A DNA stretch of 64,000 bases from Clostridia bacterium (GTDB lineage Bacteria; Bacillota; DSM-521; Neomoorellales; SLTJ01): assembly GCA_024653205.1 (NCBI GenBank), contig JANLFO010000003.1:83901-147900 (forward strand), in the 5' to 3' direction. Made by a program: the position numbers and the translations under genes. How positions within the stretch are numbered: the first letter of the stretch is position 1; the number at the start of each line of letters is the position of its first letter. The notes beneath the pieces were generated by a model. The model made no database searches and had not been told where the DNA came from. It worked only from the letters and a program-made list of their open reading frames with translations. Below are positions 11,010-63,731 of the stretch, in pieces.

Positions 11010-11075
11010 GTTCGGCCATCCCCTTCGGCGCTTCACCCACACCCACCGTGCCTGACGGCATCCGGACAATCCGGC

Positions 11076-11519: not shown

Positions 11520-11531
11520 CTGAAGCCAGAG

Positions 11532-15244: not shown

Positions 15245-15424
15245 TATACGCACCTCATTCCCGGAGATCCTCCTCCGCGCCCGGCCCGGTGGGTTCAGTA
15301 ACACCCGGGCCGGAAGCAAAAGCATAAGATCGCGGTTATCTCGGGCTAAGATGGTCTGGAGAGCTGCTCTCCACCCTTGTAGGGCCAGACCAGGATCTGC
15401 TAGCGAGTGGTCTGTATTCCTAAT

Positions 15425-15453
15425 TTGACCACCAGACAATTTTATGGTTAAAT
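15425..15453 (+). promoter_or_regulatory. Promoter of the sucrose synthesis-like gene pair
   Basis: TTGACC (15425-15430), 17-nt spacer, TTAAAT (15448-15453), then a short leader and the ribosome binding site at about 15476. Confidence 0.65.
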
Positions 15454-15491
15454 ATAAGTTGGCGAATTGCCGAAAGGAGGGAGCCGAGGCA

Positions 15492-36371: not shown

Positions 36372-39300
36372 CGGGGGCAAAGCGGTCCTCGCTTATACCC
36401 ACTACGTAGCCCTTGCCGGCCATGAATTCGATTTCTTTCTGCGCCCAGTGCCCGGCAATGTCCGGGAAGGTCTTTGCTGTCCCCGGCGCGGTGGTGACCG
36501 CCGCTGCGGCCGCCGGAGAGAGGCTCTCCAGGAGGGCGTACTTGCTGAGGTGCTCTACCTTCACACTTATGGTCCCTTGGGCCGCATCGTAAGTGCCGCC
36601 CACTTCTTCCCAGCTTTGCTTGGCTTCGTCGTAGCGGTAGGCTTTTACCCTACCGGCCGCCGCCGCCTCTTTGGCCGCCTCGGGCACCGGGAGGATCACC
36701 CTGAGGTCCGGCCAGCGGGCCACGCTTTGCCGCTTGCCGTCCTTGTCCACTACCGCCAGGTCCAGCTCGTACACTTCGCCTACCAGCCGGTGCTGCTCTC
36801 CCAGAGCGGCGAGCAGATCACGAACCGCGCTCGCGTCTAGCTTCTGCGCCTTCAGCTCCAGTTGCGCCGTCCCGGCGGCGGTTACCTCCGGCACTTTAAG
36901 GCTATCGGCGGACAGGACAAACTGCACTCCCTGAACGCTGACGGCCAGCGGCTTTTTCGCCTCCCAGATTTTGCTCAACTGTTCCCTGGACAAGACCAAC
37001 AGGGTTTGCACGCCGTCCGCCTCTAGGGCTACTACGCCGGTGGTGGCAGCCTTCTTGAGGGCCTCCTCCAGGGCGGTGTCGCTCACCGGGGCGGCCGGGC
37101 CGCCGGGGACAATGGCGCTTCCGGTCACGGTGATGGTTACCGGCACCGGGCGCACCATGTCCCGCAGGCCCCGGCTGTCATACCTCTCCGCCGACACCTC
37201 ATAGGTGCCCGGTTGGTAGAACCTGATCACCGCCTGGCCGTTTTCATCGGTCGCCACGGGTGTGCCCTCCGGCTGGTACTCCTGGCCGTTGACGTATATC
37301 ACCGCCCCCTTGAGCTTGGCGCTGACGGTGGGGCCGGTGCCGCTGGAGCCGGACAGGTCGGTCTTGGTCCCGGTCAGGGTGAGGGTTATCTCCTCGCCGG
37401 TTTTGGCGCTGGTCTTGGAGGCGCTGAGCTGGGTGTACCAGGTTTCGAAGCCGTAGACGGCAAAGTACCAGACGATGTCCTCACCGCCCTTGAGCGTGTA
37501 GGCCTGGCAGCCGTAATCGGGCAGGACCCCGTTTACCCGGTACAGCCAGCCGGAGGTGCTGCGGTAGTCGAACTCCCGGTCGCCGGCGATCATGGCCACG
37601 TAGAGGGCCCAGCCGTAGTCCTGGAGGTCCAGGCCGCTATCGTGGTCCGTGCAGTCGATACCCACGGATTCCAGGGCTCGGATCAGCGCGTGGGCCACCG
37701 TCGGTTTCGTCAACTTGTCCGGCCCCCAGCCCGGGGAAGGCTCGGCGGAAATGCCGGAAGCAGGTCCCAGGTAGGGCGTGAGGTCGAAGTTGTCCACCAC
37801 CACTCTGGTCCTCGGCACTATGGTACAGTCATACCCTTCCACCCGGATGTATACCGACACGCTGCCCGAGGAGGGGGGCTGCCCGCCGCTACCGGACGTG
37901 GTCTGGGTGTAGATGACGAACCGGGTGAGGTGCTTGGTCCAGACCACCAGGTCCTGGCCCACGTCTATTCTGCCGTCACCGCCGGCGGGCAGGGCGTCTC
38001 CGGCTTGCTGGCTGTCGGAGGTCATTACGGTGGTTATCTTGGTGAAGACGCCTTGCCGGTAGTAGCCCACTTCCTTGCCCGCCTGGCCGGCAAACACCAG
38101 CCTTACGGCCCGGTCAAAGACCAGTTCCTGGTCCTCGGCGCCCACTTCGATGACTGCCTGCACGGTGGCGGTCTTGCCGGGGTCCGGGGTCACGGTGACG
38201 CTGCTGTTGGGCTTGATGGTGGGGAGGTTTAGGGTGCCCGCCCAGGTGAGGGGCGCACTGATGCCGGTGTTCTGGGGTATCTCTACCTTTACCTGCCCCG
38301 CACTGGTCTCAGCCTGCACGGTTAGAGCTTGGGGGATGGTGGCGCGCTTTTGCCCCTCGGTTTCAGTAACCAGCGGTATTAGGTTGAGGCGGGCTTCGGT
38401 GACGTTTTGCGGCACGGTTACGGTGGCCGCAGGACTGTCTTGGTCCAGGGTGAGGTCTTTTTGGGCCTCGCTGACCATTACCTCTTGCTGTCTTACCGGT
38501 GCGGGGTTGAGGTATAGGGTTATGGGAGCGGAGTCGACCGCCCCGGGCTCGACTACGGCGCTGGCCTTTATGACCACGGTTACGGGGGTGAGGCGGCTTA
38601 GGGCCTGATGGGCCGCGCCGGTGACGGTGATTATTACGGTGTTGCCCTCGCCTTTGGCCGCGGCAGCGCTAAGCCCCGCCGGCAGGCCGGTAAGGGTGAG
38701 ATCGGCGGCGGAAAGGTTGTCCTTCACCGTTCCCGAAGTCAGTTGTATGCTCCAGGCGTTGTCGCTCTGGGCAACCTCCCGGTTCCCCGCCGCCAGGGTC
38801 ACGCTGGGGTCGGTAGCCTTCCCGGCCACTTTGACCGCCGCGTATTCCCCGAAGTAGTAGATGGAGGTGCGGCCGCCGTTATAGGCCCCGTTGTGGCGCA
38901 CGAACTTGTCGTAGGCCAGAAGCGCCTGGTAGCCCTGCTCGGTGGCCATGCCGGTTACGCCGCTGCCGTCCAAGGTGTGCAGGATGGAGCCGTCGGCCTG
39001 CAGGAAGTCCAGCAGCGCCTCCACCAGATTCTTGTTCTTGGTGAACCGCTCCGAGGTGGGATCGATGCCGTTGGCGCACAGGGCGATTATGGCCTGCGAC
39101 ACGGACTCGCTGTTATAGGTGCCCCAGGAGTAATAACCGCCTTCAGGCGCTTGTTTTTGCGCCAGCCACTCTACCGCCCGGTCGATGGCCGCCGAAACGT
39201 CCTCCCGGTCACGATAGGGCGCCAGACCGATGAGGGTCATGGCGGTGATGTCCACGTCGCTGTTGCCCGTGGCCCCCAGATCCCAGCCGCCGTCGGCGTT

Positions 39301-42269: not shown

Positions 42270-44537
42270 TTACTCTACGCTCCATACCAGCGGCACCGCC
42301 AGCAGGGGCCGCATGCCCTCAAAGCTGTCCCACACCAGGGCCTTTAAGGTGTAGGCGCCGCTTGAGGGAATGGTGAGGCCGCCGGCGGTGAGCTCCGCCT
42401 GCTCTCCGGCTCCGACCTCGCGCGAGGTCGAATCATAGGCCACCATGGCCTTGCTCTGCTCGTCGTAGAGGCAGACGATCAGGGTGACCGGCTGGGAAGC
42501 AGTGGTCTGGTTGCTGATGCTCACGGTTACGCTGGCGGTATCGTCCAGGGAGAAGCCGCCGGTGCCCACCCTTTCGATCTGCAGCTCGCCACCGGCCGCC
42601 GGCGGCAGGGTGACGGAAAGTTTCACCGGAGCGTTCTGCCAGTTGCCCGCCGCGTCTTTGGCGATGAGGTATATCTCGTAGGCCGTGCCGGCGCTGAGGC
42701 CGCTTATGGACCGGCTCACTTCCTCCGTGCCCGGCACCTCTGCCGGGGTCCAGCTCTCATACTCGCTTCCGGGAGCCACCCCCTCTTCCACCACCCGGTA
42801 GTACGCCGTGCCGGGCTCGTTTAGCTTGAGCCTGAGCGTAAAGCCGGTGGGTACTATGTTGTCTACCGAAGGATAGCCCGGGGCGAACTGCGGCGGGGTG
42901 GTGTCCGAAGGGGCGGGGTTATAAGTCACGGTGTAGGTGGCCGTGGCTCGGTTGCCGGAATCGTCCGTGGCTTCGATGTGGATGCTGTTCTCGCCCTCGG
43001 CCAGGGTTACGGCAAAGAGGAAGCTGCCGTCTGGCTGGCGGGTGCCGAAAATAACCTGGCCGCCAGCCCCGCCCAGCTTCACCACCGGCACTACCGGGCC
43101 GTCCACTTGGTCGTAGGCGCTGACGGTAAAGCTCAGCTCCGGGGAGGACACGGTCATGCCCTCGCTAAGCCCGGTGACGTTAATCGCCGGGGGCGTGGTG
43201 TCGCTCGGCGCGTAGCGGGTGAGTTTGTAGAGGTCGGAGCCGATGGCGAAATATACGCTGCCATCCAGGCCGGTGCAGGCGTTGGTGGGGCTGGGGGTGC
43301 CGGTAAGGTCAGCCGGCAGCTCTAGCTCCCTCCAACTCGTGCCGTCAAAGAACTGGGCGGTATCCCGGTGGACGAATATCAGGCCGGCACCCAGCCCAAT
43401 GCTTCCGGAGGTGGTACCCTGCAAATAACTGACATCAAAGGCTGCTTCTTCCGCCCAGTTCCCGTTTCTGTACCGATAAATATGTCCAGTATCACCAAAG
43501 GCGGCGCTGGTAACGGCGAGTATATCCTCGTCATTTAGCGCCCATATTCTCTGGAGGCGGTTCAGGTTCAAGCCCACCGGCGAGATGTCCGCCCACTCCC
43601 CGCTGGTTCGGTTGTACCGGTAGAGTACGGGCCGGTTAGTGTTCGAGGACAGATACCCCCCGAGGTACAGGTAGCCGGAAGTGCACGCCCCGGTGAGGAA
43701 TCTGGCTTGGGGAAGACCTGCGGCCTCGTAGTCTATCTTCTGCCAGACGTTTAGCGCGGGATTATAGCGCGCCACCCCCTCGCGGAAGGAAAAGACTTCG
43801 TTGCTGTCCCCAACCAGATACTGCGGATTGGTTATTTCGCATGGCATCCGGTCATACACCACACCGCTTACGCTGCGGCGAAGGTAGTAAGTGCCTGATC
43901 CGGCCCGTTCCGTGAAGAAGAAGTCGTCCTCCGCCAGGGCATACGCTCTCATGATCGGATACCCTAGGTCGCGCGAGGTTCCCTGGGCAAAATCAACTAT
44001 GGACGCGTTCTGGGACGCCTTCGAGCCCCGGACCACAAACCTATCCGGGCCTATGTTGACCAAGACTCCGGAGGCGTCCACCGGTCCAAGCTTCTGCCAG
44101 GTATAGCCCTGGACCTTGGCAGTGGTGGTGAACTCTAGCTTGTACGTGGTGGCCGGAACTCCATTTTTGGTGAAAAGAAGGTAAGCATCGTACGAGTGCT
44201 CGGGTTGGAGGCCAGACACCGTTCCAGTTCCCCTACCAGTGCCGTACCAACCCCAGTCAATCTGGCGACCACTGCCTATGATGCTGTCCACCGAGGGCTC
44301 CGGCGCCCCATGATCCAACAACAGGATATAGCTACTACTCATATCGAGCCCCTCGGCGGCATACTCGATAACCACAAAGGTGGAACTTAAGGTGGCCACC
44401 GCGGGTGGATAGGTGAACTCCGGACCGTTAGCCGCATGTGCATTCCCAGGCACCGAAGAGTAAGCGGAAAGAAAGATTAGCGCGGCGAGCGCTGCCAGAA
44501 CCAAGCGATTGCCGCTTCTTTTCCTTATGGTAAGCAT
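42270..44537 (-). CDS. Exported multi-domain beta protein (propeller/Ig/CARDB-like)
   Basis: 755 residues. Signal peptide (LVLAALAALIFLSAYSSVPGNAHA). Fibronectin/Ig-like N-terminus (TYPPAVATLSSTFVVIEY), a kelch/propeller-like middle (about 140-450, repeats such as DRFVVRGSKAS, EDILAVTSAAFGDTGHIYRYRNGNW), an Ig module ITVEATD-like (NSIHIEATDDSGNRATATYTVTYNP, about 530) and a CARDB-like C-terminal module (LQIERVGTGGFSLDDTASVTVSISNQ). No SLH, lipobox or sortase signal. The DTTPPAINVTGLSEGM module is nearly repeated in the 2114-residue protein (DTTPPAITVTGLSDGM), so the two genes share modules. Placed 26 bp upstream of it, presumably in one operon. Function unknown; surface or secreted. Confidence 0.72.
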   Translation of the reverse strand: MLTIRKRSGNRLVLAALAALIFLSAYSSVPGNAHAANGPEFTYPPAVATLSSTFVVIEYAAEGLDMSSSYILLLDHGAPEPSVDSIIGSGRQIDWGWYGTGRGTGTVSGLQPEHSYDAYLLFTKNGVPATTYKLEFTTTAKVQGYTWQKLGPVDASGVLVNIGPDRFVVRGSKASQNASIVDFAQGTSRDLGYPIMRAYALAEDDFFFTERAGSGTYYLRRSVSGVVYDRMPCEITNPQYLVGDSNEVFSFREGVARYNPALNVWQKIDYEAAGLPQARFLTGACTSGYLYLGGYLSSNTNRPVLYRYNRTSGEWADISPVGLNLNRLQRIWALNDEDILAVTSAAFGDTGHIYRYRNGNWAEEAAFDVSYLQGTTSGSIGLGAGLIFVHRDTAQFFDGTSWRELELPADLTGTPSPTNACTGLDGSVYFAIGSDLYKLTRYAPSDTTPPAINVTGLSEGMTVSSPELSFTVSAYDQVDGPVVPVVKLGGAGGQVIFGTRQPDGSFLFAVTLAEGENSIHIEATDDSGNRATATYTVTYNPAPSDTTPPQFAPGYPSVDNIVPTGFTLRLKLNEPGTAYYRVVEEGVAPGSEYESWTPAEVPGTEEVSRSISGLSAGTAYEIYLIAKDAAGNWQNAPVKLSVTLPPAAGGELQIERVGTGGFSLDDTASVTVSISNQTTASQPVTLIVCLYDEQSKAMVAYDSTSREVGAGEQAELTAGGLTIPSSGAYTLKALVWDSFEGMRPLLAVPLVWSVE

Positions 44538-44649
44538 GGGCTGACACCTCCCATGAAAAAACCACTAGATTTAGGGGAAGACCCCGGTATAGGAAAGGCA
44601 CCTGCGTTTCTAAATAGTAATAAGGCAATAACGAGCCAAAACGGAGAGG

Positions 44650-44683
44650 TGCCTCTGCGCGGGCGTAGCCCCGCGCAGAGGCA
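44650..44683 (-). terminator. Perfect 14-bp palindromic hairpin
   Basis: TGCCTCTGCGCGGG and CCCGCGCAGAGGCA around a 6-nt loop, 14 bp after the stop of the PQQ-propeller gene. Only CCGTTTT follows at some distance, so it is either a weak terminator or an mRNA stabiliser/processing hairpin between two operon genes. Confidence 0.55.
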
Positions 44684-44696
44684 TATTCTCGGCTTC

Positions 44697-46559
44697 CTAG
44701 TGGACATAGTAGAGATAACCCGAGTCATCCCCGTAGAAGAGCTTGCCGTCAGCGGCCGCAAAACCCTGCAGCACGTAGTTTTGGCTGGTATAGGTCCATC
44801 GGCCTTCTGACTTCCATTGCTCTTCTTCTTCGTCGTAGTAATGCTTTACGCAGACGGCCCGGCCTCCCTGGTTGTTTTCCGTGACATAGATGTAAATCTC
44901 GGTATCGGAAGCCGGGTAGACCACAGGTGAGGACTGGATTATCCGCAAATTCAGGTCATTGGGATCCTCACTTACCAGTTCGACAGGACGTCCAAAACCA
45001 CCGCCGGAAACCGGCACCGCCCACAAGCCGGAACCGCCGTAAATCCGGCCCATTCCCACGTACACCCAGTCGCCGTACCTGACCGGCGTAGAGGTGCAGT
45101 AGTTCTGCGGCTGTACGGGAGTTACTGCGCCCACTATCCTCTGGGTTGTTGGGTTATACTCAAGCTGGTACAGGTACCCGTCAGCAGAGGTCAGGTAGAG
45201 ATAGTCGTTCCCAGTGGCGTTGTCGTAGTAACAAATAGAGGAGCGTATAGGCTCATTGCTCTGCGTCAGGTCGTAGGCCTGCACGCCGGGGGTGTTGGTG
45301 TCCTGGTCTACCTCTATTGCATTGCCGTCCTGGTCCGGCTCCAACTTTACCACGTGGACCTTACCGTCTTCGTCACCGAAAATGGCCACATCGTCCACGC
45401 AGGCGGCTCCGGCCCAGTAGTAACCCTTGGGCGAACCTCCGGTGTACTCCCACTTGACCTGTCCCGTATTGGCATCAATGCAGAAGTACTTTCCGCCCGT
45501 ACTGCCCGTCCATTTACCCAGCAAGAGGTAGGAGCCAGTGGCGTTCTGGTAGTACTTCAAAGGCGTATTGGCCTGGCCGGACTGGGCGAGGTTGCAGAAG
45601 TTGCTGTTCAAGCTGAGCGCACCCGTACCCAACCCCGTCACCTTCTCCACCCCCATGCTCTGGGCTATCACCTGGCAGTCGGTGAAGCAGCAGGTGGCGG
45701 TGGAGGAAGCGGAGGTAGTATAATCGAACACGAAGCGGATGTCGTAGTTTACGCCTGAATTAGGGAAGTAGGTGGTGCTGATGTTTTCATTGACCGGTAC
45801 CCACGTATCGTAGGCCGTAGGCGTAATGGTCAGCGCCGTGTTCCAGGTGGAATCGCTGGGCCTTTTTACTTGCACCTTGATGAGCCGCTGGCTGGGCGGA
45901 GATCCGGTATACTGCTGCAAGTAGGAAAAGGCAATGCGCACGTTGGAGTTGCTGGGCACGTACACGGTCTGCTGGATATAGCCGTCTCCGTCGGTGGAAG
46001 GATCGTTCTCGTGGATCCGGGCACAGGTCTTACCCGATACGGTGGTCTGGGAAAACTCCGGGGAACCGGCCGAGCTACCCGTGGTCCACCCGTCTAAACT
46101 CGTGGTAAAGTCCTTGTTCTGAGTCTGGTTTAAATGGGTGTTTACCCCAAGGAAAATGCTGTTCCCGTCAGAGGCCGGGGTGCAAAGTTGGAAACCCCCC
46201 GTGTCTACGGTCAGCGGTGTGGATCCTGCCACCAGGGAATTGCCGCTGGTGTAGTACTCGTATAGCTTCTGGAAGGGGAAGACGTAAACGTAGCCCGTGT
46301 CGTTGGTGGTCACGTAAATAGGGGTGGAATCTATGCCGAAAAAGCTCCCGTATTCGGTTTGCACTGAGGTGACCGTAGCGGTAGACCCGGTGGGCAGCGC
46401 CGCACCGGTGTAAATCCCGCTGTTCTTCGCGTCCTTCTGGAACTGCGGCCAGTCGGCGGCAAGCGCCGGCGTGGCCGCAACCAACGCAACCAATAATAAG
46501 GCAAGAAAGATTACCAACGTCTTCTTCCCCACGTTTAAAGCACCTAGACTGATAGGCAT
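44697..46559 (-). CDS. Exported PQQ-like beta-propeller protein
   Basis: 620 residues. Signal peptide (VIFLALLLVALVAATPALA) followed at once by DWPQFQKDAKNSGIYTG, the usual first blade of PQQ-like/PQQ_2 propellers. Further blades: GGKYFCIDANTGQVKWEYTG, GAACVDDVAIFGDEDGKVHVV, DYLYLTSADGYLYQLEYN and ADGKLFYGDDSGYLYYVH. A jelly-roll-like insert sits at about 165-300 (QNKDFTTSLDGWTTG...FSYLQQYTG). No catalytic or anchoring motif, so a secreted or surface binding/scaffold role is likely. Thr/Ser/Asn-rich and slightly AT-richer than its neighbours, hinting at separate history. Precedes the multi-domain gene by 160 bp. Confidence 0.75.
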   Translation of the reverse strand: MPISLGALNVGKKTLVIFLALLLVALVAATPALAADWPQFQKDAKNSGIYTGAALPTGSTATVTSVQTEYGSFFGIDSTPIYVTTNDTGYVYVFPFQKLYEYYTSGNSLVAGSTPLTVDTGGFQLCTPASDGNSIFLGVNTHLNQTQNKDFTTSLDGWTTGSSAGSPEFSQTTVSGKTCARIHENDPSTDGDGYIQQTVYVPSNSNVRIAFSYLQQYTGSPPSQRLIKVQVKRPSDSTWNTALTITPTAYDTWVPVNENISTTYFPNSGVNYDIRFVFDYTTSASSTATCCFTDCQVIAQSMGVEKVTGLGTGALSLNSNFCNLAQSGQANTPLKYYQNATGSYLLLGKWTGSTGGKYFCIDANTGQVKWEYTGGSPKGYYWAGAACVDDVAIFGDEDGKVHVVKLEPDQDGNAIEVDQDTNTPGVQAYDLTQSNEPIRSSICYYDNATGNDYLYLTSADGYLYQLEYNPTTQRIVGAVTPVQPQNYCTSTPVRYGDWVYVGMGRIYGGSGLWAVPVSGGGFGRPVELVSEDPNDLNLRIIQSSPVVYPASDTEIYIYVTENNQGGRAVCVKHYYDEEEEQWKSEGRWTYTSQNYVLQGFAAADGKLFYGDDSGYLYYVH

Positions 46560-52749: not shown

Positions 52750-53745
52750 CTAGCCCAACCTTTTCAGGATATCTCTAATGATGGCGTCGCCTTCCACCCC
52801 GTCGGCTACGGCCTTGAAATTCAAAAAGAACCGGTGCCGCAGGCAGGGCAGGGCCATTTCCCGGACGTCCTCCACCGACACGTTGAACCGGCCTTGGGCC
52901 AGCGCCCTCACCCGGGCGGAGGCGATCATGGCCTGCACCCCGCGCGGGCTGGCTCCGTAGCGCACATACTCCCTCACCAAGGGCACGTCCGTCCGATCCG
53001 GGTGGGTCTGGAGCACAATCTGCACCGCTTTTTGCCTTGCCGTCGAGGGAACCGGCACCCGGCCGGCCAAATCCTTCATGAGCAGAAGCTCTTCCCGCGA
53101 TAGCCGCTTCTGCAGCCGCAGGCCGTCCCCCCCGATGGTGGTCACGTCGAGGATCCGGTGGATGTCCCGCTCGCCGGGTAGCCGCACCTGGAGCTTGAAG
53201 AGGAAGCGGTCCAGTTGGGCTTCCGGGAGACGGTAGGTGCCTTCCATTTCGATGGGATTCTGGGTGGCCAGAACGAAAAACGGTTCCGGCAGGCGGTAAG
53301 TAACCCCGCCGACGGTGACCGCCCCTTCCTGCATGGCCTCTAAAAGGGCGCTTTGGGTCTTGGGGCTGGCCCGGTTGATCTCGTCGGCCAGTACCAGGGA
53401 ACCGAAAAGGGGGCCGGGGCGGAAGGTGAATTCCAGCCCCCGCTCCGTGCGGTTTACTACTTCGGTGCCGATGATATCCGCGGGCATCAAGTCCGGAGTG
53501 AACTGGATGCGGGAAAAGGGAAGGTCCAACACCCGGGCGAAGGACTTTACCAGAACCGTCTTGCCCAGTCCCGGCGCTCCTTCCACCAGCACGTTCCCTC
53601 CGGCCACTATGGCAATCAGCACCTGCTCCACTATTTCCCTTTGCCCGACCACCTGCTTTTCCACTTCGCCCACCACGGCCTCAAACCGAGCCTTAAAGCT
53701 CTCTAAGACCTGAGTTTCCCTTTCCGCCTCAATTGCCGGCTCCAT
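52750..53745 (-). CDS. MoxR-family AAA+ ATPase
   Basis: 331 residues. Walker A EGAPGLGKT, RIQFTPDLMPADIIG, Walker B LVLADEINRASPKTQSALLEAM, sensor ATQNPIEMEGTYRLPEAQLDRFLFK, and the C-terminal lid with YVRYGASPRGVQAMI. MoxR proteins act as chaperone-like ATPases that mature or insert cofactors in VWA-containing or surface complexes. It overlaps the preceding gene by 17 nt and sits one base before DUF58. Confidence 0.95.
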   Translation of the reverse strand: MEPAIEAERETQVLESFKARFEAVVGEVEKQVVGQREIVEQVLIAIVAGGNVLVEGAPGLGKTVLVKSFARVLDLPFSRIQFTPDLMPADIIGTEVVNRTERGLEFTFRPGPLFGSLVLADEINRASPKTQSALLEAMQEGAVTVGGVTYRLPEPFFVLATQNPIEMEGTYRLPEAQLDRFLFKLQVRLPGERDIHRILDVTTIGGDGLRLQKRLSREELLLMKDLAGRVPVPSTARQKAVQIVLQTHPDRTDVPLVREYVRYGASPRGVQAMIASARVRALAQGRFNVSVEDVREMALPCLRHRFFLNFKAVADGVEGDAIIRDILKRLG

Positions 53746-55303
53746 CGGTCTGGTCCCCCCTGAGCGCCCGAAAATACCCCATCACCAGCCGCTGCTTCTC
53801 GGCCGGCAGATTGTACCCGTCAAGGTAGGCCGCCTCCCCAGCCGGAAAATCCCGGTAAAGGGGTTGGCGCAGGGCGGCTTCGCCGGCCAGGCCGAGGACC
53901 CGGTCGGACGGCCTTTCCTCCACCCGGCCCCGGTCTTCCTGCCACTGCCCCCGCGCTTTCAGCCAGGGCGAACCCGAGCCGGAGGCGAAAACCGGGGCGT
54001 CGCTCTTTTCAAGACCGGCCTGCAACCCGGCCTCCCCGGCTCCTCCGCCGGGCACGTCCCCTCCGCCCAAGGCCCAGGCCTTCCGCTCGGGCCGGCGCCC
54101 AAACTGGCCTGCGGCCGTGGCCGCCTCCCGGCCGGCCGCCTCGCCGTCCAAGGCCACGGCCCTATTGTTGGTCCCCAGTTCGCCCCCGCCGACGTGGGCC
54201 ACTTCCCCCACCTCCCGGCCCGCTCTGGCCAGCAGCCGCTCTTTGGCGCTTCTTAGCTCGGTTTGCGCCTCCTCCAGCTCGGAAAGCTTCACTGAGGACG
54301 CCAGCACCCCGGCCAAATCCTCCGGGCGAAAACCTGGACGGTCCAAAACGGCCTTCATTTCCTGCAGGATCCGCCCCTCCTCCGGTTTCAGTCCCCCTTC
54401 GGCCAGCATTCTCCGGACGTTTTCCCAAACCACGCGGAGTTCGCTTTCGCTCCCGCGCCAATCACCGAGCGCGCGGGCCGCTCCCACTACGTCTCCCGCC
54501 CGCAGCCGAGCGGCAGCTTGGGCGGCCTCTTGCCCCGCGCCCTCAAATACTCCGGCCAGGCGGCCGGCATCTGCCGAATCCAGCTCTCCCCCCAGCCCAC
54601 GGAGGGTCTGCAGCGCGCCGGCGACCTCCAGGGCGGCCTGCCGGTAATCGTAGCTCCGCTCCAGCTTGCTCTCCAACTCGCGCAGAAGGGCCACCGCCTG
54701 TTTGATCAAGGCAGCGCTCGGCCCCTGGGCTTCCGAGGCCTTATCCTCCAGACTCTTTCGGATTTGCGCCAACTCCTGGACTTCCTCCTGCAAGGCGCGG
54801 TTTACCTCTTCCCGCCGGGTCGCTTCCTCCGCCCGGGGCGAGGGCAACCAAAGGATTCCCCCGGCCGCGGCAAGGAGAACGAGCGCGGCGAGCAGCTTCT
54901 TCCCCGGGAAGGCCGGCCGGTAGCTTCGGGCCGGGTTCACCAGCGCCAGAGTGCCCAGCAGTTCTTCTCGAAACGCCCGCACGAGGGGGTCGTTCCGGTC
55001 CCCGTACTCCAGGTAGGTGCAAAGGCGCTCTTTTAGGCCCAGCCGGTCGCCCACCTCCGCGGCCTGCCTTATCCCCGGCCGGCCGGTCAGAGCCCAGATC
55101 CCGCCCCCGGTCATCGACACCGCCAGTACGACCGCCGCCTTGGCGCTTACGTAGGGCAAAACCAGGAGGTGTCTCCCCAGCGCCAAGGCCAGAACGGCCG
55201 CCGCCCCCGCCAGCAGGGTCAGCGAAAGCCTCTCCAGGGCTGTTCCCAGCCAAATCCGGTTCCTCAGCCTTCTTAACGCTGCCTCTACCTTGGCCTCAAC
55301 CAC
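53729..55303 (-). CDS. Membrane-anchored coiled-coil protein (DUF4175-like)
   Basis: 524 residues. Two to three helices near the N-terminus (about 27-65 and 135-155), then a long charged helical/coiled-coil region (about 155-375: EEVNRALQEEVQELAQIRKSLEDKASE, KLSELEEAQTELRSAKERLLARAG) and a Gly-rich, low-complexity C-terminal part. Topology resembles DUF4175-type proteins found beside MoxR/VWA genes. Function unknown. Overlaps the preceding membrane gene by 8 nt. Confidence 0.65.
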   Translation of the reverse strand: MVEAKVEAALRRLRNRIWLGTALERLSLTLLAGAAAVLALALGRHLLVLPYVSAKAAVVLAVSMTGGGIWALTGRPGIRQAAEVGDRLGLKERLCTYLEYGDRNDPLVRAFREELLGTLALVNPARSYRPAFPGKKLLAALVLLAAAGGILWLPSPRAEEATRREEVNRALQEEVQELAQIRKSLEDKASEAQGPSAALIKQAVALLRELESKLERSYDYRQAALEVAGALQTLRGLGGELDSADAGRLAGVFEGAGQEAAQAAARLRAGDVVGAARALGDWRGSESELRVVWENVRRMLAEGGLKPEEGRILQEMKAVLDRPGFRPEDLAGVLASSVKLSELEEAQTELRSAKERLLARAGREVGEVAHVGGGELGTNNRAVALDGEAAGREAATAAGQFGRRPERKAWALGGGDVPGGGAGEAGLQAGLEKSDAPVFASGSGSPWLKARGQWQEDRGRVEERPSDRVLGLAGEAALRQPLYRDFPAGEAAYLDGYNLPAEKQRLVMGYFRALRGDQTDGAGN

Positions 55304-56039
55304 GGGTCAGACGACCTCCCGAGACTTTCTGGGTCGCCAGCACCAGGGCCGCTGTCACCAACCCCCAAAAGCCCAGGCAGGCGTACGCCGGAAGCAGACC
55401 TAACTGGGTGCCGCCGCCGGCCTGGCAGTAAGCTAAGCCGGCCAGGGCCAGGAGGGGATTAAGGAAGAAAACCTTCGGTATATCGCGGTCGTAGAGAGTG
55501 GTGATCACCGCCTGCCGGTACTGAACGCAGAAGTAGGCCAGTAGGCCGCCTAGGACGAGCACGCAAAAAATGAGGAACCCGGTGAGAAACCCGTTCCACC
55601 GCCAACCGGGCTTTACCGCCTCAAGAAAGCCCCGCCCAACCACCACCGCCATGCCCCACACCGTCTTTAAGGCCAAAGGAAGCAACAAGTCGGCAGGCAT
55701 GGTCCGTCCGGCCACAAAAATCGCCAGGGCGACCGGAACCGTAGACGCGGCCATGACCGCAATTCCGACGCAGCTTTTCCAGAGATAACGGTTCTGCGAA
55801 GACGCCGCTTCTCTTTCCCAATAGGGCACAAACAGTGTAAAGAGGAGGAAGTCGAAGACCAGAAAATAGACGTAGGCATTACGATACTGGACCGGATTAT
55901 ACCCCTCCTCCCGGCCTATCCCCACCCACAGGTACAGGGCCAACACAAAAACCAGAACCGCGAGGTACACGGTTCCCAGAAGCAGATTCTCTCTCTCCAC
56001 AGCAAGGACCTCGGTCAGTCGCGCCAGTCTGGGTTTCAC
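55296..56039 (-). CDS. Polytopic membrane protein, unknown
   Basis: 247 residues with about six predicted helices (for example LLLGTVYLAVLVFVLALYLWV, YVYFLVFDFLLFTLFVPYW, AVMAASTVPVALAIFVAG, GFLIFCVLVLGGLLAYFCV). The run of helices and the conserved N-terminal RENLLLG suggest an ABC-2-permease-like or integral scaffold subunit, but no motif settles it. Overlaps both neighbours by a few bases, so it is an obligatory part of the cluster. Confidence 0.6.
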   Translation of the reverse strand: MKPRLARLTEVLAVERENLLLGTVYLAVLVFVLALYLWVGIGREEGYNPVQYRNAYVYFLVFDFLLFTLFVPYWEREAASSQNRYLWKSCVGIAVMAASTVPVALAIFVAGRTMPADLLLPLALKTVWGMAVVVGRGFLEAVKPGWRWNGFLTGFLIFCVLVLGGLLAYFCVQYRQAVITTLYDRDIPKVFFLNPLLALAGLAYCQAGGGTQLGLLPAYACLGFWGLVTAALVLATQKVSGGRLTRG

Positions 56040-58099
56040 CGGCCCGCTGCCACCCCTTTTACCGCCACCTGGGGAACCAGCATCCTGAGCTCACCTCTCA
56101 GGCTAAGAACCAAGGGGCCGTCAGACAGGTACTCTTGCAACTTTTCGCCAGATAGAACTTCTTGCTGAAGAATCTCATGCCTTCTGCCCACCGGATTGAA
56201 GACGAGAACATTCGGATTACCAGCGACAGAGGCAGGGGCAAGAACGATTTCCGTGGGCTCCAGCCCCCGCGGGATTACGTAATATACCTTCAGTTCCCCT
56301 TCCGGAGCCCCGGGGTATTCCCTTACGGCCTCGTTCTCTCCCGTCAACCCGTGCCCTCTTATCGGCCTTATAGTCTCTGGCGGAAGGTACTCCATCCGTC
56401 CGTCCTCAGGCCCTATTCGGATCGGGAATACGTGCATAATCGTGCGCCAGAAGCGTAGTTTCCGGCCGTTAATCTCCACCGCCCCTTCTTCCCGGGTAAA
56501 CCCGATGAGCCTGCCGCCGGGGCCATAATCGTCCAGCTGGCAGAAGTAGTAGTCAATCAGGTGCCGCCGGTGACCCTGGACGCCGGCAGCTCGGTAGAGA
56601 AGCTCCAGATAATTGTAGTCCCCGGTTTCACTGAGGTTGTGGTCCAGCCGATAGTCTACGGTAAATCTTTCCCTTCCCTTCATTCGACCCACGGGAATAA
56701 CGGTGTCCCCTACGATAAGAAAGCAATGCTCCATGGTATACGGCAAGGGATTGGTAATTCTTCCGGACAGAAGTCCATCAGGGCTTACGGTCAGGGCAAG
56801 ATCCCCATCCCCACTCCCCCCTACTTCCAGAAACGAGCTGAAAACGTAATTTTCGCTGGCGTCGCTGTAGATTTCTCTAGCGAGGGCATCGGCCCGCCCA
56901 CCCTGCAGGGCCCAGGCAAAGGAGGAGCCTGGAAAGGCGATCCGGGCGCCCTCCCCGGCGTAGGGATAGACGCAAGTCAACAGGAAGGTCCGGTTGAGGG
57001 GCCCGTGTAGTCTCACTCCCGCCCCTCCCGCCGCCGCCCTAGAAATGCCGGTGTACAGCGAAAGCCCAAGGAAAAGCAGGCTAAAGCAAACCACCAACGC
57101 TCCGTAGGCCCATCTACTCTGTCGCCCGAAGAAGGCCGCCACCCCTACGCACAGCACGTACAGCAGAAGCAAGGACATAACTAGGTACCAGCTGCTCTCC
57201 TCCGGTCGGATGCTTTCCGTCGCCGCTCCGCTCAGTTTCCTCGCCCCGGCAAGCTCCCTGGATAGGCCGGTCCCCCTTACCGCCTTGGCAAGAGCGTAAG
57301 CCGTAAAGTGCCTGCCGACGACTTGGCGCAGAAAATGCAGATCCTGACCAACGAGGCCTCCGGCCACCGGCACTACTATTCCGTCTCCCAGGGGCAGAGG
57401 TGCCCGTAAACCGGCCAGCACCCCGGTAAGGGTCTTGTGGCTATACTCCCCAGCCCCCACCAAAAGGCAGTTCCCCAGCCGAACCCAATCCTCCAGCAGC
57501 CGAGCCTGGTTCTCGTTCAGTTCCGCGGTTCGGAAATCCTCAACAGCGATAAGGTTTATGTTATCCAGTTCCTCCAACCGATAGGGAAGCTGCCGGTCCA
57601 GCGCCACCGTCACTACCTGCCCCTCGCCCAGTCCCTGGGTATCCAGACTAGTTAGGTAGGAAAGGGAGGCGGGGGAATCGCTGAGCAGGCCAAGCAGGAA
57701 AGTACTTTCCGGAAGAATTACCGGCGCATGATCCGTCCTGGCCTGCTCCCTACCCTCTACTTCTAGGGCAGCCTCTATTTTTTCACCCGCGCTAAATAAG
57801 GGTACGGAGAAGCGTACGGTTTTGGCCCCTCCGGCTTCCAGGTCTACCGGCGCCACATAAGTCCGTTCGCCGACCTTCAGTTTCAATTCCCCCCGACAGC
57901 CGTCGGCAGAGGCCTTTACCTCCACGGTGACGGGATTCAGCCCGCCCAGCTTGCACCTTCCGTCGAACCCGGAGCGAATGGTGAGCTCGGCGGAGGCGGC
58001 CCGGGCACCGCTGCTCCAACCCAGCAAAACCGCCCCCAGTATCAACACGGCCAGCGCCCGATAAGCTTTAACTCTGCTCCTAATTAAGATAGGGAACAC
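56036..58099 (-). CDS. Large exported/membrane protein of MoxR cluster
   Basis: 687 residues. Signal peptide (ALAVLILGAVLLGWSSGARA); beta-sandwich N-terminal part (AELTIRSGFDGRCKLGGLNPVTVEVKAS); an amidotransferase-like middle (EELDNINLIAVEDFRTAELNENQARLLEDWVRLGNCLLVGAG), two helices at about 308-360 (WYLVMSLLLLYVLCVGVAAFFG, then WAYGALVVCFSLLFLGLSL) and an extracytoplasmic C-terminal domain. The same topology is known for unnamed proteins accompanying VWA/MoxR genes. Function unknown. Starts at GTG 58099, overlapping the DUF4430 lipoprotein gene by 20 nt. Confidence 0.65.
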   Translation of the reverse strand: MFPILIRSRVKAYRALAVLILGAVLLGWSSGARAASAELTIRSGFDGRCKLGGLNPVTVEVKASADGCRGELKLKVGERTYVAPVDLEAGGAKTVRFSVPLFSAGEKIEAALEVEGREQARTDHAPVILPESTFLLGLLSDSPASLSYLTSLDTQGLGEGQVVTVALDRQLPYRLEELDNINLIAVEDFRTAELNENQARLLEDWVRLGNCLLVGAGEYSHKTLTGVLAGLRAPLPLGDGIVVPVAGGLVGQDLHFLRQVVGRHFTAYALAKAVRGTGLSRELAGARKLSGAATESIRPEESSWYLVMSLLLLYVLCVGVAAFFGRQSRWAYGALVVCFSLLFLGLSLYTGISRAAAGGAGVRLHGPLNRTFLLTCVYPYAGEGARIAFPGSSFAWALQGGRADALAREIYSDASENYVFSSFLEVGGSGDGDLALTVSPDGLLSGRITNPLPYTMEHCFLIVGDTVIPVGRMKGRERFTVDYRLDHNLSETGDYNYLELLYRAAGVQGHRRHLIDYYFCQLDDYGPGGRLIGFTREEGAVEINGRKLRFWRTIMHVFPIRIGPEDGRMEYLPPETIRPIRGHGLTGENEAVREYPGAPEGELKVYYVIPRGLEPTEIVLAPASVAGNPNVLVFNPVGRRHEILQQEVLSGEKLQEYLSDGPLVLSLRGELRMLVPQVAVKGVAAGR

Positions 58100-59483
58100 G
58101 AATCACTCCCTCCGGGGTCACTACGGCTCCGAAATAGTGCTTGATAGCGCCAGGCCGATCGATGAGAATATCCAGGGCCCGGTTCAAACTCTCTTCGTCC
58201 GTACCCGTCAGCACCCACACGGGATACAGGCTGCCGATGGAGGAGCCATAGGCGTAAATCGCTCCCGCCCGACGGTGTGAGGAAACAGTATTGCCCTTAA
58301 AGTCCAGGGCTTTCACTTCGCCGTCCTCGAACTTGACGTAAACCCCTACCAGCTTATTCCGCCGGTTAACATCGTTTAATACCTCGCTTCCCGCGGCCAG
58401 TTCGTCCCATAGACCCATGAGAATGTAGTACTTCTTGGGCTCCCTCAGAACTTCCGGATCGTAGGGCGCAGTGTCCACCTGTTTGACTCCTCGGCTTTCC
58501 AGGCTCTGCTTCAATCGTTCGGCCTCCCCTTGGTACGTCGGAGTGTGCATCACCACCGTGCCGGGGTTTTTCCCCCAGAAGCCGTTCTTGAAGGGCTGGG
58601 GATAGGAACCGATCACGGCGGGAATGAACATGGTCACGCTCCAGTCGTGATAGTCCCACCAAATAACGTCTCCAGGCTGGGGGCGGTACTCCGCAACACC
58701 CACCGGAGCCAGAATGCCGTTAACCCAGTAAAACCAATCCAGCTTTTTCCTGTCCTTGCCAGTATAAAAGGTATAGCCCGACTCCAGGCCGTTAATGGCG
58801 TTCACGAATCCGCCTCCGTAGGCGGTCTGGATATCCAGGTTCCTGAACATGACTTCCATTCCCACTTCGTCTCGGACCAGCCCCACGGTCTTGGCAAACA
58901 TTTCTTGATGGCCGAAGTCCCGGGTAACAATCAGATCAACCTTATAGGGGCTTTCGATATCCCCCGAGGCCTTGTAGGTTTTGGCGTTCTCGCTGGCCGG
59001 GGTGCCTTCCTTATACTTGACCTCCCCCTGCACCGGCCCCTTGTAGCCCCTATAAGCAACGCCGTCGATTACCGTTACCTGGTCGGCGCCTTCACCTGCG
59101 GCCGCGCTCCCGCCGGAGCCGTTTCCGTCCTGGCTCAGCTTGGAGCCCGGAGGCCGGTCCTGCCGGCTAACAACCGGTTCGTGGTGCCGTCCTTCCTGCC
59201 CGGTCCTCTCTTCTTCGCTCCGCTCTGAGGCGGGCTCGGACGGGTTCAAGGTTGACTGGGCGCTAGCCCTGGCATCGCCCCTCGTCTCCCGAACTCCCGC
59301 CTCCTCACTCCCGGGTTCGCTTTCCGGAACCCTCACAGGTTGGCTGCTTTCCGCTTGCCGATTGGTGATCACGGAGCCCGAATCCGCCTTGCCGGATCCG
59401 CACCCACCCAAGACGACCAGAAATGCCAACAGAACCAACGCGATCAGTCGTCTGAGATCGGGCCGCATGCTGACGATGCTCAT
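58080..59483 (-). CDS. DUF4430-domain lipoprotein
   Basis: 467 residues. Lipobox VLGGC (Cys28); Ser/Glu/Arg-rich linker about 30-135; DUF4430 domain about 180-282 (VMFRNLDIQTAYGGGFVNAING, DWFYWVNGILAPVGVAEYRPQPGD); an additional domain to the C-terminus (TYQGEAERLKQSLESRGVKQVD and onward). DUF4430 is the beta domain of intrinsic factor/transcobalamin. Head of the eight-gene MoxR cluster and preceded by leader element copy 3, so it links that cluster to the barrel/DUF4430 S-layer proteins. In that scheme the protein would be a membrane-tethered receptor; this is inference. Confidence 0.8.
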   Translation of the reverse strand: MSIVSMRPDLRRLIALVLLAFLVVLGGCGSGKADSGSVITNRQAESSQPVRVPESEPGSEEAGVRETRGDARASAQSTLNPSEPASERSEEERTGQEGRHHEPVVSRQDRPPGSKLSQDGNGSGGSAAAGEGADQVTVIDGVAYRGYKGPVQGEVKYKEGTPASENAKTYKASGDIESPYKVDLIVTRDFGHQEMFAKTVGLVRDEVGMEVMFRNLDIQTAYGGGFVNAINGLESGYTFYTGKDRKKLDWFYWVNGILAPVGVAEYRPQPGDVIWWDYHDWSVTMFIPAVIGSYPQPFKNGFWGKNPGTVVMHTPTYQGEAERLKQSLESRGVKQVDTAPYDPEVLREPKKYYILMGLWDELAAGSEVLNDVNRRNKLVGVYVKFEDGEVKALDFKGNTVSSHRRAGAIYAYGSSIGSLYPVWVLTGTDEESLNRALDILIDRPGAIKHYFGAVVTPEGVIRVPYLN

Positions 59484-59901: not shown

Positions 59902-61143
59902 TCAGCCCCTTTCCGGACACTTGTCGCCTTCCCCAGGGGAACTATGCTTCTCCTTGGGCAGTATCGGAAAGTTTTCCACCAGGAAGCAATAGACAAGGAT
60001 GAGCGCGCTCCACATCCCCAGGGTAATCAGGAATTCCCAGACGCTGGGAAAATAGGGCTGCCCGGCCGCTTTGGCCATGCCGGTAAATACCACGTTGAGG
60101 CGGTTGAATACGACCCCGCCCACCACCAGGCAAGAGGCGGCCAGCACCCCCCAGGTCTTACGGCTTATGGCCGGAACCGCGTACATTATAATAGGCAGAA
60201 TCACGAACCCGACCATTTCCACCAGGTACATGTGGCTCTCAAACGAGCCCTCGAACAGCCGGGGAAAGGCGCCGCGGTAGCCCAGGTCGATCAGCTTTAC
60301 GGCCAGGTAAACCAGCATCATCCCCAGGGTCACCCGGGTCAGGCTTCGGAATAACGGCGTCTCCGGCTCCCGCCGGTAAGCCCGGGCGGCCAGAGTTCCC
60401 TCCAGGGTGACCATGGCCGGGCCGAGGAAAAAGGCGGACCAGACGAAAAAGAAGGGAAGCAGCATGGACCACCAGAGCGGGTGCAGTTTGTTTACCGCTA
60501 TGACATATAGCGAGCCCAGCGACGACTGGTGCAGGGTGGGTAACACAATACCCAGGATTAGCAGGAGGGGCATCAGCTTTTGCAGTAAGCCCTTCAGGAC
60601 GGGGGCTCTTACCCTCTCGAAAAAGACTTCGCCGAACTCCAAGATTTGAACCAGCGTGTAAAGAGAAATGCACCAAAACACCTCGAACAGCACCGAGTGG
60701 TAGCCCCAGAAAAAGAACGGCCGCCAGAAATTGTACCAACGTCCGATATCCAGAAACAGGCTCACCAGCGCCACCAGGTAGCCTATTAAGGAGGTAAGCA
60801 GCGCCGCGCGGGCTACGGGCAGGTACTTATCCCGGTGCAGCACGTGCACGATCAGGGCGGTGCTAAAGCCGCCGCCGGCCAGGGCGATGCCGCACAGCAG
60901 GTCGAAACCGATCCACAACCCCCACGGCCACTGATCGCTCAGGTTGGTCACCGCGCCCAGGCCGAAGATGAAGCGATACAAGGCGGTTAAGGCTGCTACT
61001 AATACCAGCCCGATTAGTACCACCCTGGGAAGCGTGATCCTAAAGGACCAATTCCCTACTTCCATCCGGAAGAAGAAGGCTAGCCCCGGCCCAACTGTGG
61101 GTATAATCCTAACGGAGCAATTCCCTTCTGGCACCTTTTTCAT
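59902..61143 (-). CDS. HybB/NrfD-like membrane subunit of hydrogenase
   Basis: 413 residues from the ATG at 61143 (MKKVPEGN; GGGGGAATAAGG upstream). About ten membrane helices; NrfD/PsrC features are DQWPWGLWIGFDLLCGIALAGGGFSTALIVHVL (about 65-100), the FWGYHSVLFEVFWCISLYTLVQILEFG block and HPLWWSMLLPFFFVWSAFFLGPAMVTLEG. Such subunits carry menaquinol/menaquinone sites and link periplasmic iron-sulfur proteins to the quinone pool. It forms the membrane anchor of the hydrogenase encoded upstream. Confidence 0.88.
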   Translation of the reverse strand: MKKVPEGNCSVRIIPTVGPGLAFFFRMEVGNWSFRITLPRVVLIGLVLVAALTALYRFIFGLGAVTNLSDQWPWGLWIGFDLLCGIALAGGGFSTALIVHVLHRDKYLPVARAALLTSLIGYLVALVSLFLDIGRWYNFWRPFFFWGYHSVLFEVFWCISLYTLVQILEFGEVFFERVRAPVLKGLLQKLMPLLLILGIVLPTLHQSSLGSLYVIAVNKLHPLWWSMLLPFFFVWSAFFLGPAMVTLEGTLAARAYRREPETPLFRSLTRVTLGMMLVYLAVKLIDLGYRGAFPRLFEGSFESHMYLVEMVGFVILPIIMYAVPAISRKTWGVLAASCLVVGGVVFNRLNVVFTGMAKAAGQPYFPSVWEFLITLGMWSALILVYCFLVENFPILPKEKHSSPGEGDKCPERG

Positions 61144-61285
61144 CCTTATTCCCCCATCCGTTACCGCATTTTGCTTGTTCCGGCGAGCGGTCCTCCACGT
61201 CGGTTGCCAATTTCCCGGGCAACCGCACGCCGTCAACTAAGGGGTAACCGGGCGGCCCGTTTACCTGCCTGGCGATACCAGTCCG

Positions 61286-62098
61286 CTACTCCTCCGCATC
61301 CACCGGGGCGTACATCTCTTCTTCCGAATGGGCTACCGCTCGGCGCCGGTTGTACAGGTACATGACCGCCAGCAGGGCCCCCCAGCCCACGAATAGGTGC
61401 GGGGTCCAGCGGAGCACCGCCCAGGTATACTCCGGGAGCGGCCTCTCCGGAACCCCGGTCGGGAACCCCAGCCGTTCAAAGGGAACGTCCGAGAGGTAAA
61501 GCCAGGAGGTGCCTCCGGCTTCGGTCAGTCCGTATATCTGGCTCACGTAAAGGTCCGGCCGGGAGTACTGGCGCTGCCTGGCTTCCGCTATGATCTTGTC
61601 CCGGTCCCCGAAGGTTAGGGCGCCAGTAGGGCACGCGCTTACACAGGCAGGCATTTGATCGTTTGCGATTCGCGCCAGGCACATCTGGCATTTGAGCACC
61701 CTGGGAAACGGTTTGTCCCACTCGTACCTTAATACCTCAAAGGGACAGGCAATCATGCAGTAGCGGCAGCCCACGCAAAGTTTTTCATTGTAAACCACCG
61801 GGCCTTCCGGGGTTTTCTGCAGGGCCTTGGCGAAACAGGCGGAAGCGCAGGCCGGGTCGAGGCAGTGGAAGCACTGCCTTTTCACAAAGCGCCTCACCCG
61901 GCTCCCGTCCTTCTCCACCCGGAAGGACTGCACCACCGTCCACCGGTCAGGGGCCAGCTCAGCCGGCCCGTCGGGTTTGGCCTCCCCGCCGGCTCTTGGA
62001 CCGGGCTTCAGGTCGTTGTACAACCGGCAGGCGACCACGCAGCTCTCGCATCCCACGCATTTAGTAATATCTACCAACACGGCCTGGCTACGACCCAT
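61286..62098 (-). CDS. HybA-like four-cluster ferredoxin with C-terminal helix
   Basis: 270 residues from the ATG at 62098. Four [4Fe-4S] motifs: CVGCESCVVAC, CFHCLDPACASAC, CVGCRYCMIACP and CQMC...CVSACPTG. A hydrophobic helix at about 238-257 (HLFVGWGALLAVMYLYNRRR) anchors it, as in HybA of hydrogenase-2. It would pass electrons between the [FeFe] hydrogenase and the NrfD-like subunit. It has no Tat or Sec signal of its own, so export would have to be by hitchhiking with the Tat-bearing catalytic subunit. Confidence 0.9.
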   Translation of the reverse strand: MGRSQAVLVDITKCVGCESCVVACRLYNDLKPGPRAGGEAKPDGPAELAPDRWTVVQSFRVEKDGSRVRRFVKRQCFHCLDPACASACFAKALQKTPEGPVVYNEKLCVGCRYCMIACPFEVLRYEWDKPFPRVLKCQMCLARIANDQMPACVSACPTGALTFGDRDKIIAEARQRQYSRPDLYVSQIYGLTEAGGTSWLYLSDVPFERLGFPTGVPERPLPEYTWAVLRWTPHLFVGWGALLAVMYLYNRRRAVAHSEEEMYAPVDAEE

Positions 62099-62153
62099 TG
62101 CTACCACCCTTTCCGGTTTACCTTCCTGGCCCTTTACTTAGGCGGCCGGTTTG

Positions 62154-63731
62154 CTACCCCGCCAGAGACAGGGGCCGCAGTTTGTCGGCCCGGGAGTAGT
62201 ACCGGGTGTGGAGCAGCTCCTCGGCCAGTTCGCTCATCGGGTGCTTGAGAAACCCCTGGTATAGAGCGGCCAATTCCGCATTCTCGTAGCTACTGCGTTT
62301 GCCAAGGCTCGCGTCGGCCCTATAAAGGGCGGCGATGCGTTGGGCGCGCAGGGCATCGGTGGGCGGCACGGCCGTACGGGGCTGCCCGCCGCCGCCGATG
62401 CAGCCTCCCGGGCAGGCCATAAACTCCACAAAATGCCAGGGGGTCTCTTTCCGGCGCACGGCCTCCAGGACCTTGCGCCCGTTGGCCATGCCGTGGCAAA
62501 CAGCCACCCGGAGGGTGCCTACGCCCGGCATCTCCACCGCCGCCTCCTTCACCCCGGCCAGGCCGCGAACCGGCGTAAGGTTTAAAAAGGAGGCGGGAGG
62601 ATCTTCGCCGGTAATGAAGAAGTAGGCGGTGCGCACGGCGGCCTCCATGACTCCTCCGGTGGCGCCGAAGATCACCGCCCCTCCGGTTTTCTCACCCATA
62701 AGCTGGTCGTATTGCTCCTCAGGGAGAGCGGCCAGGTCGATTTGTTTCTCCTTGAGGATCCGGGCCAGTTCCCGGGTGGTAAGCACAACATCTACGTCCC
62801 GCAAATCTTGGCGCTGCCAGTATTTTGCGCTGGCATTCATCTCCGGCCGCCGGGCCTCAAACTTCTTGGCCGTACAGGGCATGACGGAAACCGAAACGAT
62901 GTTGCCGGGATCTACGCCTCTCCGGCCGGCGTAATAGGTCTTGACCAGAGCGCCGAGCATCTGCTGGGGCGACTTACAGGAAGAAAGGTGGGGTAGTAAC
63001 TCCGGATAAAAATACTCGCAGAATTTGACCCACCCGGGCGAGCAGGAGGTAAATTGCGGCAGGGGCCGCTTGGCCTCGCCCTTGATCCGCTTGATCAACT
63101 CGGTGGCTTCCTCCATTACGGTCAGGTCGGCGGCAAAGTTGGTGTCCAATACGGCGTCAAAACCTAGCTTTCTCAGCGCCGCCACCTGTTGCCCTTCCAC
63201 CCAGGCGCCGGGAGGCAGGCCGAATTCCTCGCCCAGGGACACCCTGGTGGCCGGTGCCGTCTGAACCACCACGAACTTGCTTTCATCCGCCAGTGCCGCC
63301 AGTACTTCTTGGGTGTGGTCGCGCTCGCGGATAGCACCCGTGGGGCAGAACAGGGAGCACTGGCCGCAGTGGATGCAGATGGTTTCGTCTATGACCGGTA
63401 GCCCGTAATAGCCGTAGACACTCTGCACGCTCTGGCAAACCTCCAGGCACTGCCCGCACAGTACGCACTTTTGATCGTCGCGGCTGAGGGAAGGGTTATC
63501 GGGATCGATGGGCACGCGGCCGCGCACTTGGGCCGGCAGATGGCCCGGCAGGTCGTACTGATACGGCAGCCAGCCCTTCCCGCCCACGTATGCCGGGCTC
63601 TTATCCTCCATGCAGCCGCCCAGCAGGCCGCTCAGCCCCAAAAGTAATCCGCTACCGGCCACCATCTTGAGAAACGAACGGCGGGTAAGTTCTCTCTTCT
63701 CCGGATCCATGGCGTTTGTTCTGGCCTCCAT
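62154..63731 (-). CDS. [FeFe] hydrogenase catalytic subunit, Tat-exported lipoprotein-like
   Basis: 525 residues from the ATG at 63731 (GGAGGAG 5 nt upstream). Twin-arginine signal TRRSFLKMVAGSGLLLGLSG (16-35) with a possible lipobox LGGC (Cys40); two [4Fe-4S] motifs CVLCGQCLEVC and CIHCGQCSLFCP; H-cluster signatures L1 TSCSPGW (C230), L2 MPCTAKKFEA (C286) and L3 FMACPGGCIGGGGQP (C440, C444), all four ligand cysteines present. Reversible H2 oxidation. Catalytic sites of this type are usually cytoplasmic; the Tat signal and HybA/HybB-like partners imply the outer face of the membrane. Confidence 0.93.
   Translation of the reverse strand: MEARTNAMDPEKRELTRRSFLKMVAGSGLLLGLSGLLGGCMEDKSPAYVGGKGWLPYQYDLPGHLPAQVRGRVPIDPDNPSLSRDDQKCVLCGQCLEVCQSVQSVYGYYGLPVIDETICIHCGQCSLFCPTGAIRERDHTQEVLAALADESKFVVVQTAPATRVSLGEEFGLPPGAWVEGQQVAALRKLGFDAVLDTNFAADLTVMEEATELIKRIKGEAKRPLPQFTSCSPGWVKFCEYFYPELLPHLSSCKSPQQMLGALVKTYYAGRRGVDPGNIVSVSVMPCTAKKFEARRPEMNASAKYWQRQDLRDVDVVLTTRELARILKEKQIDLAALPEEQYDQLMGEKTGGAVIFGATGGVMEAAVRTAYFFITGEDPPASFLNLTPVRGLAGVKEAAVEMPGVGTLRVAVCHGMANGRKVLEAVRRKETPWHFVEFMACPGGCIGGGGQPRTAVPPTDALRAQRIAALYRADASLGKRSSYENAELAALYQGFLKHPMSELAEELLHTRYYSRADKLRPLSLAG

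Follow-up and report, generated by a model that had tools for sequence, protein, structure and literature searches.

A predicted Tat-exported [FeFe]-hydrogenase with HybA/HybB-like partner proteins in a Clostridia bacterium

Can an [FeFe]-hydrogenase receive its H-cluster in the cytoplasm, leave the cell interior through the Tat system and work on the outer face of the membrane in contact with the quinone pool? This question is raised by an operon in the window (the whole stretch of 64,000 nucleotides that was analysed, taken from contig JANLFO010000003.1 of a Clostridia bacterium), for which such an arrangement had been proposed in an earlier note. The operon consists of three genes on the minus strand, in the order catalytic subunit, HybA/HmcB-like protein and HybB/HmcC/NrfD-type protein. 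The two partners are related to the iron-sulfur and membrane proteins (HybA and HybB) of the [NiFe] hydrogenase-2 of E. coli, whereas the catalytic subunit belongs to the [FeFe] hydrogenases, which are unrelated to the [NiFe] ones. The features are the following:

62154..63731 (-): catalytic subunit, group A [FeFe]-hydrogenase, 525 aa (TIGR02512, PF02906, PF02256, H-cluster loops)
63612..63731 (-): predicted Tat signal peptide with lipobox, residues 1-39, the would-be lipidated cysteine being residue 40 (motif reading and conservation)
61286..62107 (-): HybA/HmcB-like iron-sulfur protein, longest frame 273 aa, or 270 aa from the ATG at 62098 (HmcB and HybA models, Fer4_11, hydropathy)
59902..61236 (-): HybB/HmcC/NrfD-type membrane protein, longest frame 444 aa, or 413 aa from the ATG at 61143 (HybB and HmcC models, PF03916, hydropathy)

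The 525-residue frame of the hydrogenase starts with the ATG at 63731, which has GGAGG 8 bases ahead of it; an alternative in-frame TTG start upstream would yield a protein of 592 aa. Its identity was decided by sequence matches to solved hydrogenases, with the bifurcating-type HydA1 chains 8a6t_A (E 9.7e-130) and 7q4v_A (1.8e-126) on top, followed by 8ryh_A (1.3e-124), a chain holding both Desulfovibrio subunits. The protein exceeds the cut-off of the model for group A [FeFe]-hydrogenases (TIGR02512, 495.6 bits against 405.95), contains the catalytic domain PF02906, a fused small-subunit domain (PF02256) and two [4Fe-4S] motifs, and all its H-cluster loops are complete (TSCSPGW (L1), MPCTAKKFE and MACPGGCIGGGGQP), which bears out the claim that it is a complete H-cluster protein. 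The periplasmic [FeFe]-hydrogenase of Desulfovibrio (1hfe) has the same core and small-subunit domain, but divided over two chains; that enzyme is soluble and delivers its electrons to cytochrome c3. The catalytic core is also shared with the bifurcating HydABC (group A6), which is encoded in the host genome as well. Nevertheless, the window protein is not one more bifurcating HydA: it remains below the cut-off of the group A6 NADH-dependent bifurcating model NF040763 (584.3 against 765 bits), it lacks the extra N-terminal clusters and it has no HydB or HydC as neighbours.

When an alignment of three members was used to scan named genomes, 19 loci came up, of which 18 were clear relatives; these belong, among others, to Pelotomaculum, Desulfoscipio, Sporotomaculum, Desulfosporosinus, Pelosinus and Sporomusa. 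Within an evenly drawn sample of the phylum, a match at E 1e-170 or better was found in 26 of 398 genomes, one of them the host's, and among 22 genomes of the host's order only the host's own carried a Tat-type hydrogenase. For the comparisons we used 48 Tat-type proteins, namely the window protein, L007, L008, the 18 named-genome loci and L056-L082 of the phylum sample (L008 and L049, both within the set, are identical); L054 (a weak match, 32% over 69 residues) and three phylum-sample matches without a locus were left out. Loops L2 and L3 are present in all 48 proteins, as is L1 in the form TSC(S or C)P, and 46 have the two 4Fe-4S motifs. The serine in the L1 loop of the window protein does not mark a dead site, as a serine stands at that place in 24 of the 48 Tat-type and in 25 of 30 other proteins; it is also found in the solved HydA1 chain 7q4v_A of Acetobacterium woodii. 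In the TSCC motif of Desulfovibrio the second cysteine binds the cluster as a ligand, whereas the first acts in proton relay, a picture that is hard to square with the TSCS enzymes. A literature search on the L1 TSCS motif gave nothing useful.

The N-terminus of the hydrogenase, MEARTNAMDPEKRELTRRSFLKMVAGSGLLLGLSGLLGGC, contains an RRxFLK motif (RRSFLK), a hydrophobic stretch and then an LGGC lipobox. The RR motif is kept in 47 of the 48 proteins and the combination of RR and lipobox in 46, the exceptions to the latter being L067, where the contig end cuts the protein, and L082, where the lipobox cysteine is absent. A HybA-like gene follows at no more than 75 bases downstream in 43 of the 48 loci (not in L036, at a contig end, nor in L051, L059, L075 and L082) and a HybB-like gene is present in 42, with L060, which has a short flank, missing only the latter. 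Because of this conservation a chance origin of the Tat motif and of the partner arrangement can be excluded, and the twin-arginine signal and possible lipobox that had been read from the single sequence now appear well founded. The host genome, when searched, also contained TatC, and export of the enzyme to the outer face of the membrane is very probable on these grounds. It has to be weighed whether the RR sequence could be an uncleaved N-terminal anchor rather than an export signal, with the enzyme facing the cytoplasm. According to the accessible part of PMC3569383, SignalP predicted no cleavage for the enzyme of D. ruminis, though its authors still placed that enzyme outside. The joint retention of RR and the lipobox cysteine and the presence of TatC argue against such an anchor, which we consider very unlikely.

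Two of the loci with a deviating organization can be described further. L082 (1480-3051) encodes a Tat-type [FeFe]-hydrogenase that has kept RRSFLK, misses the lipobox cysteine and has no HybA-like gene within 1.5 kb on either side. L051 of Sporomusa sp. KB1 (4974-6488) encodes one without HybA/HybB-like genes, upstream of which lie an apparent operon for a Tat-exported molybdopterin oxidoreductase and a rhodanese-like protein (the labels are our own).

The partner proteins had been described as being of the HybA/HybB kind. This stands in so far as HybA and HybB are among the closest models, HybB being the best NCBIfam match of the membrane partner, but all the relevant cut-offs were missed, both by the iron-sulfur partner (HmcB 274.6 against 420 bits, HybA 209.1 against 263) and by the membrane partner (HybB 310.8 against 450, HmcC 269.9 against 550). 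Judged by these scores, 'HybA/HybB-like' is a fair description and not an identification. In terms of Pfam domains, the iron-sulfur partner contains Fer4_11 and the membrane partner, in which hydropathy indicated ten hydrophobic segments, exceeds the cut-off of NrfD (PF03916). The iron-sulfur partner has a short hydrophobic segment near its C-terminus, and neither an RR motif nor a signal peptide. The first 40 residues were free of an RR motif in all 19 HybA-like partners compared (the window protein and relatives), and a C-terminal hydrophobic segment over a crude hydropathy threshold was seen in 16 of them. Lacking a Tat signal, the iron-sulfur partner probably hitchhikes on the hydrogenase, unlike HybA of E. 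coli, which has its own Tat signal according to the available text of PMC10924467. From the same text, a lipid anchor interferes with the amidase type of Tat reporter.

Directly downstream of the operon and on the same strand lies a gene for a lipoprotein-like protein of 467 aa (58080-59483 (-)), beyond which a cluster that presumably resembles MoxR plus membrane proteins is found (52750-58099). Elsewhere in the window there is a frame of 2114 aa with an N-terminus like a secretion signal (35899-42243 (-)), next to two further secreted-looking proteins (42270-46559).

The novelty that was implied for this arrangement did not hold: the module, though real and widespread, has been published before and is thus mostly ordinary. 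The accessible text of Gallego-Parrilla et al. 2024 (PMC10924467) describes it in Desulfotruncus, Desulforamulus and Proteus, including the lipobox, the partner without signal and the proposal of a hitchhiker mechanism. The window operon resembles that module, as far as it is described there, in the lipobox-containing Tat signal on a group A hydrogenase (by motif and conservation), the C-tail iron-sulfur partner without signal peptide (by crude hydropathy), the HybB-like protein next to it and the gene order. It differs in the organism and in the position of hydEFG, which is close by in Desulfotruncus and on another contig in the host. Membrane [FeFe]-hydrogenases with a Tat motif are likewise described in the available portions of the papers on Desulfotomaculum ruminis, D. 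nigrificans and D. gibsoniae (PMC3569383, PMC4149029, PMC4148979). Compared by description, these share with the window operon the three-gene locus and the Tat motif on the catalytic subunit, and the 10 helices given for the membrane subunit of D. nigrificans (PMC4149029, in part) can be set beside the ten hydrophobic segments of the window protein. For Syntrophomonas wolfei, an excerpt of PMC3582634 speaks of a HYD-2 with an external orientation. The accessible text of PMC13040438, PMC9888536, PMC6295475, PMC8924675, PMC3551663, PMC5113046 and PMC7382037 had nothing to say on the module. In the accessible literature on the module, biochemical work on purified members was not found.

Assembly of the H-cluster would have to be finished before Tat export, as the earlier note had argued, naming the presence of hydEFG in the genome as a check. 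HydG, HydF and HydE were indeed all found over their cut-offs, together on contig 5 of the host (L005), where they adjoin a HydA over the A6 cut-off. Maturation genes as a part of the operon were ruled out, with HydE, HydF and HydG in none of the 18 named loci (flanks of up to 5 kb, less at contig ends). Assembly before export is a prediction that is well supported by the sequence and its conservation, by hydEFG and tatC in the genome and by what the accessible text of the published analyses of the module says. The locus on contig 5 holds two further proteins of interest: a HydB-like protein beside the bifurcating-type HydA (8811-11846 (-), 1011 aa) that has an extra GltD-like NAD(P)-binding part behind its NuoF-like part, and a third [FeFe]-hydrogenase-like protein (14709-16031 (-), 440 aa) that scores far under the group A and B1 cut-offs and is possibly of the sensory type.

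The proposal of an outward-facing, quinone-linked enzyme thus consists of two parts that fared differently. The outward membrane attachment is backed by the Tat and lipobox conservation, hydEFG, tatC and the published module, but the quinone link is weakened in this host by early menaquinone genes not being found. Contig 2 carries a cluster of late menaquinone genes (L102 7450-10626 and 19115-20000), which encode a MenG/UbiE-type methyltransferase, a decarboxylase over the TIGR03701 cut-off, an MqnP-like prenyltransferase and, at some distance, a protein of the heptaprenyl-synthase type. MqnC/E was not found in the host genome, where the only, weak, MqnC matches were located at HydE and HydG, and neither was MqnA/D (no PF02621 match) or MenB (five matches, all below the cut-off). 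MenB could be rejected for these five matches, of which one is a 6-oxocyclohexenecarbonyl-CoA hydratase over its cut-off and the other four best fit enoyl-CoA hydratase models. The MqnC search (matches over its cut-off) and the PF02621 search do work on relatives, since each was positive in 13 of the 22 genomes from the order; neither MqnA/D nor MqnC/E was found in the two family mates of the host. The host assembly is a draft in 51 contigs (98.81% completeness), and the searches for early genes covered MqnA/D, MqnC/E and MenB, not MenD, MenC, MenE or MenF. A rival reading is that the enzyme is indeed exported but that its third protein bypasses menaquinone and passes the electrons on to, for example, a different quinone or a membrane protein lacking a free quinone, in line with the early genes not found in the host and, for MqnC/E and MqnA/D, in its two family mates. 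We think this unlikely in view of the clustered late genes, one of them over the TIGR03701 cut-off, the draft state of the assembly and the Men genes outside the search. Equally improbable to us is that the host makes its membrane quinone by an early route that was not recognised or imports a head-group precursor. By homology a quinone link of the window hydrogenase appears likely, though for this host it is tentative.

The explanation that we consider probable as a whole, judging from gene content and conservation, is that of a respiratory, outward-facing and membrane-wired [FeFe]-hydrogenase that is matured before Tat export. The catalytic protein would fold in the cytoplasm and obtain its H-cluster from HydE, HydF and HydG encoded elsewhere in the genome. 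It would then bind the HybA/HmcB-like protein, and the two together would be exported by Tat, with the hydrogenase supplying the only signal peptide; on the outside, a lipid attached to cysteine 40 and the partner's C-tail would anchor them. The HybB/NrfD-type protein would exchange electrons with the membrane quinone pool, and the two [4Fe-4S] clusters of the hydrogenase and those of the partner would connect it to the H-cluster. This explanation is weakened by the partners missing the HybA, HmcB, HybB and HmcC cut-offs and by L051, L059, L075 and L082, which have no partners nearby, and its quinone step by MqnA/D, MqnC/E and MenB not being found in the host genome.

With the H2 chemistry on the outside, membrane potential would be gained when H2 is oxidised and consumed when H2 is released. 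The metabolism of the host bears on the direction. Contig 10 carries a benzoyl-CoA lower-pathway cluster (L109 4314-11876; oah, had, glutaryl-CoA dehydrogenase and sodium-pump decarboxylase subunits), in which 6-oxocyclohexenecarbonyl-CoA hydratase, 6-hydroxycyclohexenecarbonyl-CoA dehydrogenase, glutaryl-CoA dehydrogenase and a sodium-pump decarboxylase subunit were over their cut-offs, and from these genes the host probably degrades aromatic compounds anaerobically. Anaerobic breakdown of aromatics is the life style of Pelotomaculum terephthalicicum and Sporotomaculum syntrophicum. Because of the benzoyl-CoA-pathway genes, the likelier direction would be that H2 is released in syntrophic growth through reverse electron transport, and given that DsrA was not found in the host genome either, we lean slightly towards this direction. 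The same exported complex could also serve as an uptake enzyme that oxidises external H2, feeds the membrane pool for a respiratory acceptor and builds membrane potential. Many homologues occur in Desulfosporosinus, a genus of sulfate reducers, and uptake is the textbook direction of E. coli hydrogenase-2; the missing DsrA, the benzoyl-CoA-pathway genes and the nearest relatives in Pelotomaculum speak against uptake, which we regard as the less likely but still a serious option. The accessible part of PMC10308238 suggests a possible need for membrane potential in HYD4, a hydrogenase of Pelotomaculum thermopropionicum with an NrfD subunit.

A branch with support 100 separated the 48 Tat-type proteins from the others when a quick tree was made of 78 HydA proteins, a clean split that is partly built in because part of the set was picked by the 1e-170 score threshold against the window protein. 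Among the Tat-type proteins the window hydrogenase clusters with five Pelotomaculum proteins (support 99). This placement, together with the absence from the 21 other genomes of the order, suggests a horizontal gain.

What is new is not the module but its setting: a copy in an order in which the 21 other searched genomes are without it, in a host whose quinone identity is itself in question, with its nearest relatives in Pelotomaculum and with benzoyl-CoA-pathway genes that point to H2 release in syntrophy. Exported [FeFe]-hydrogenases working on the membrane pool could explain how membrane potential is spent or gained via H2 in syntrophic and sulfate-reducing Firmicutes.
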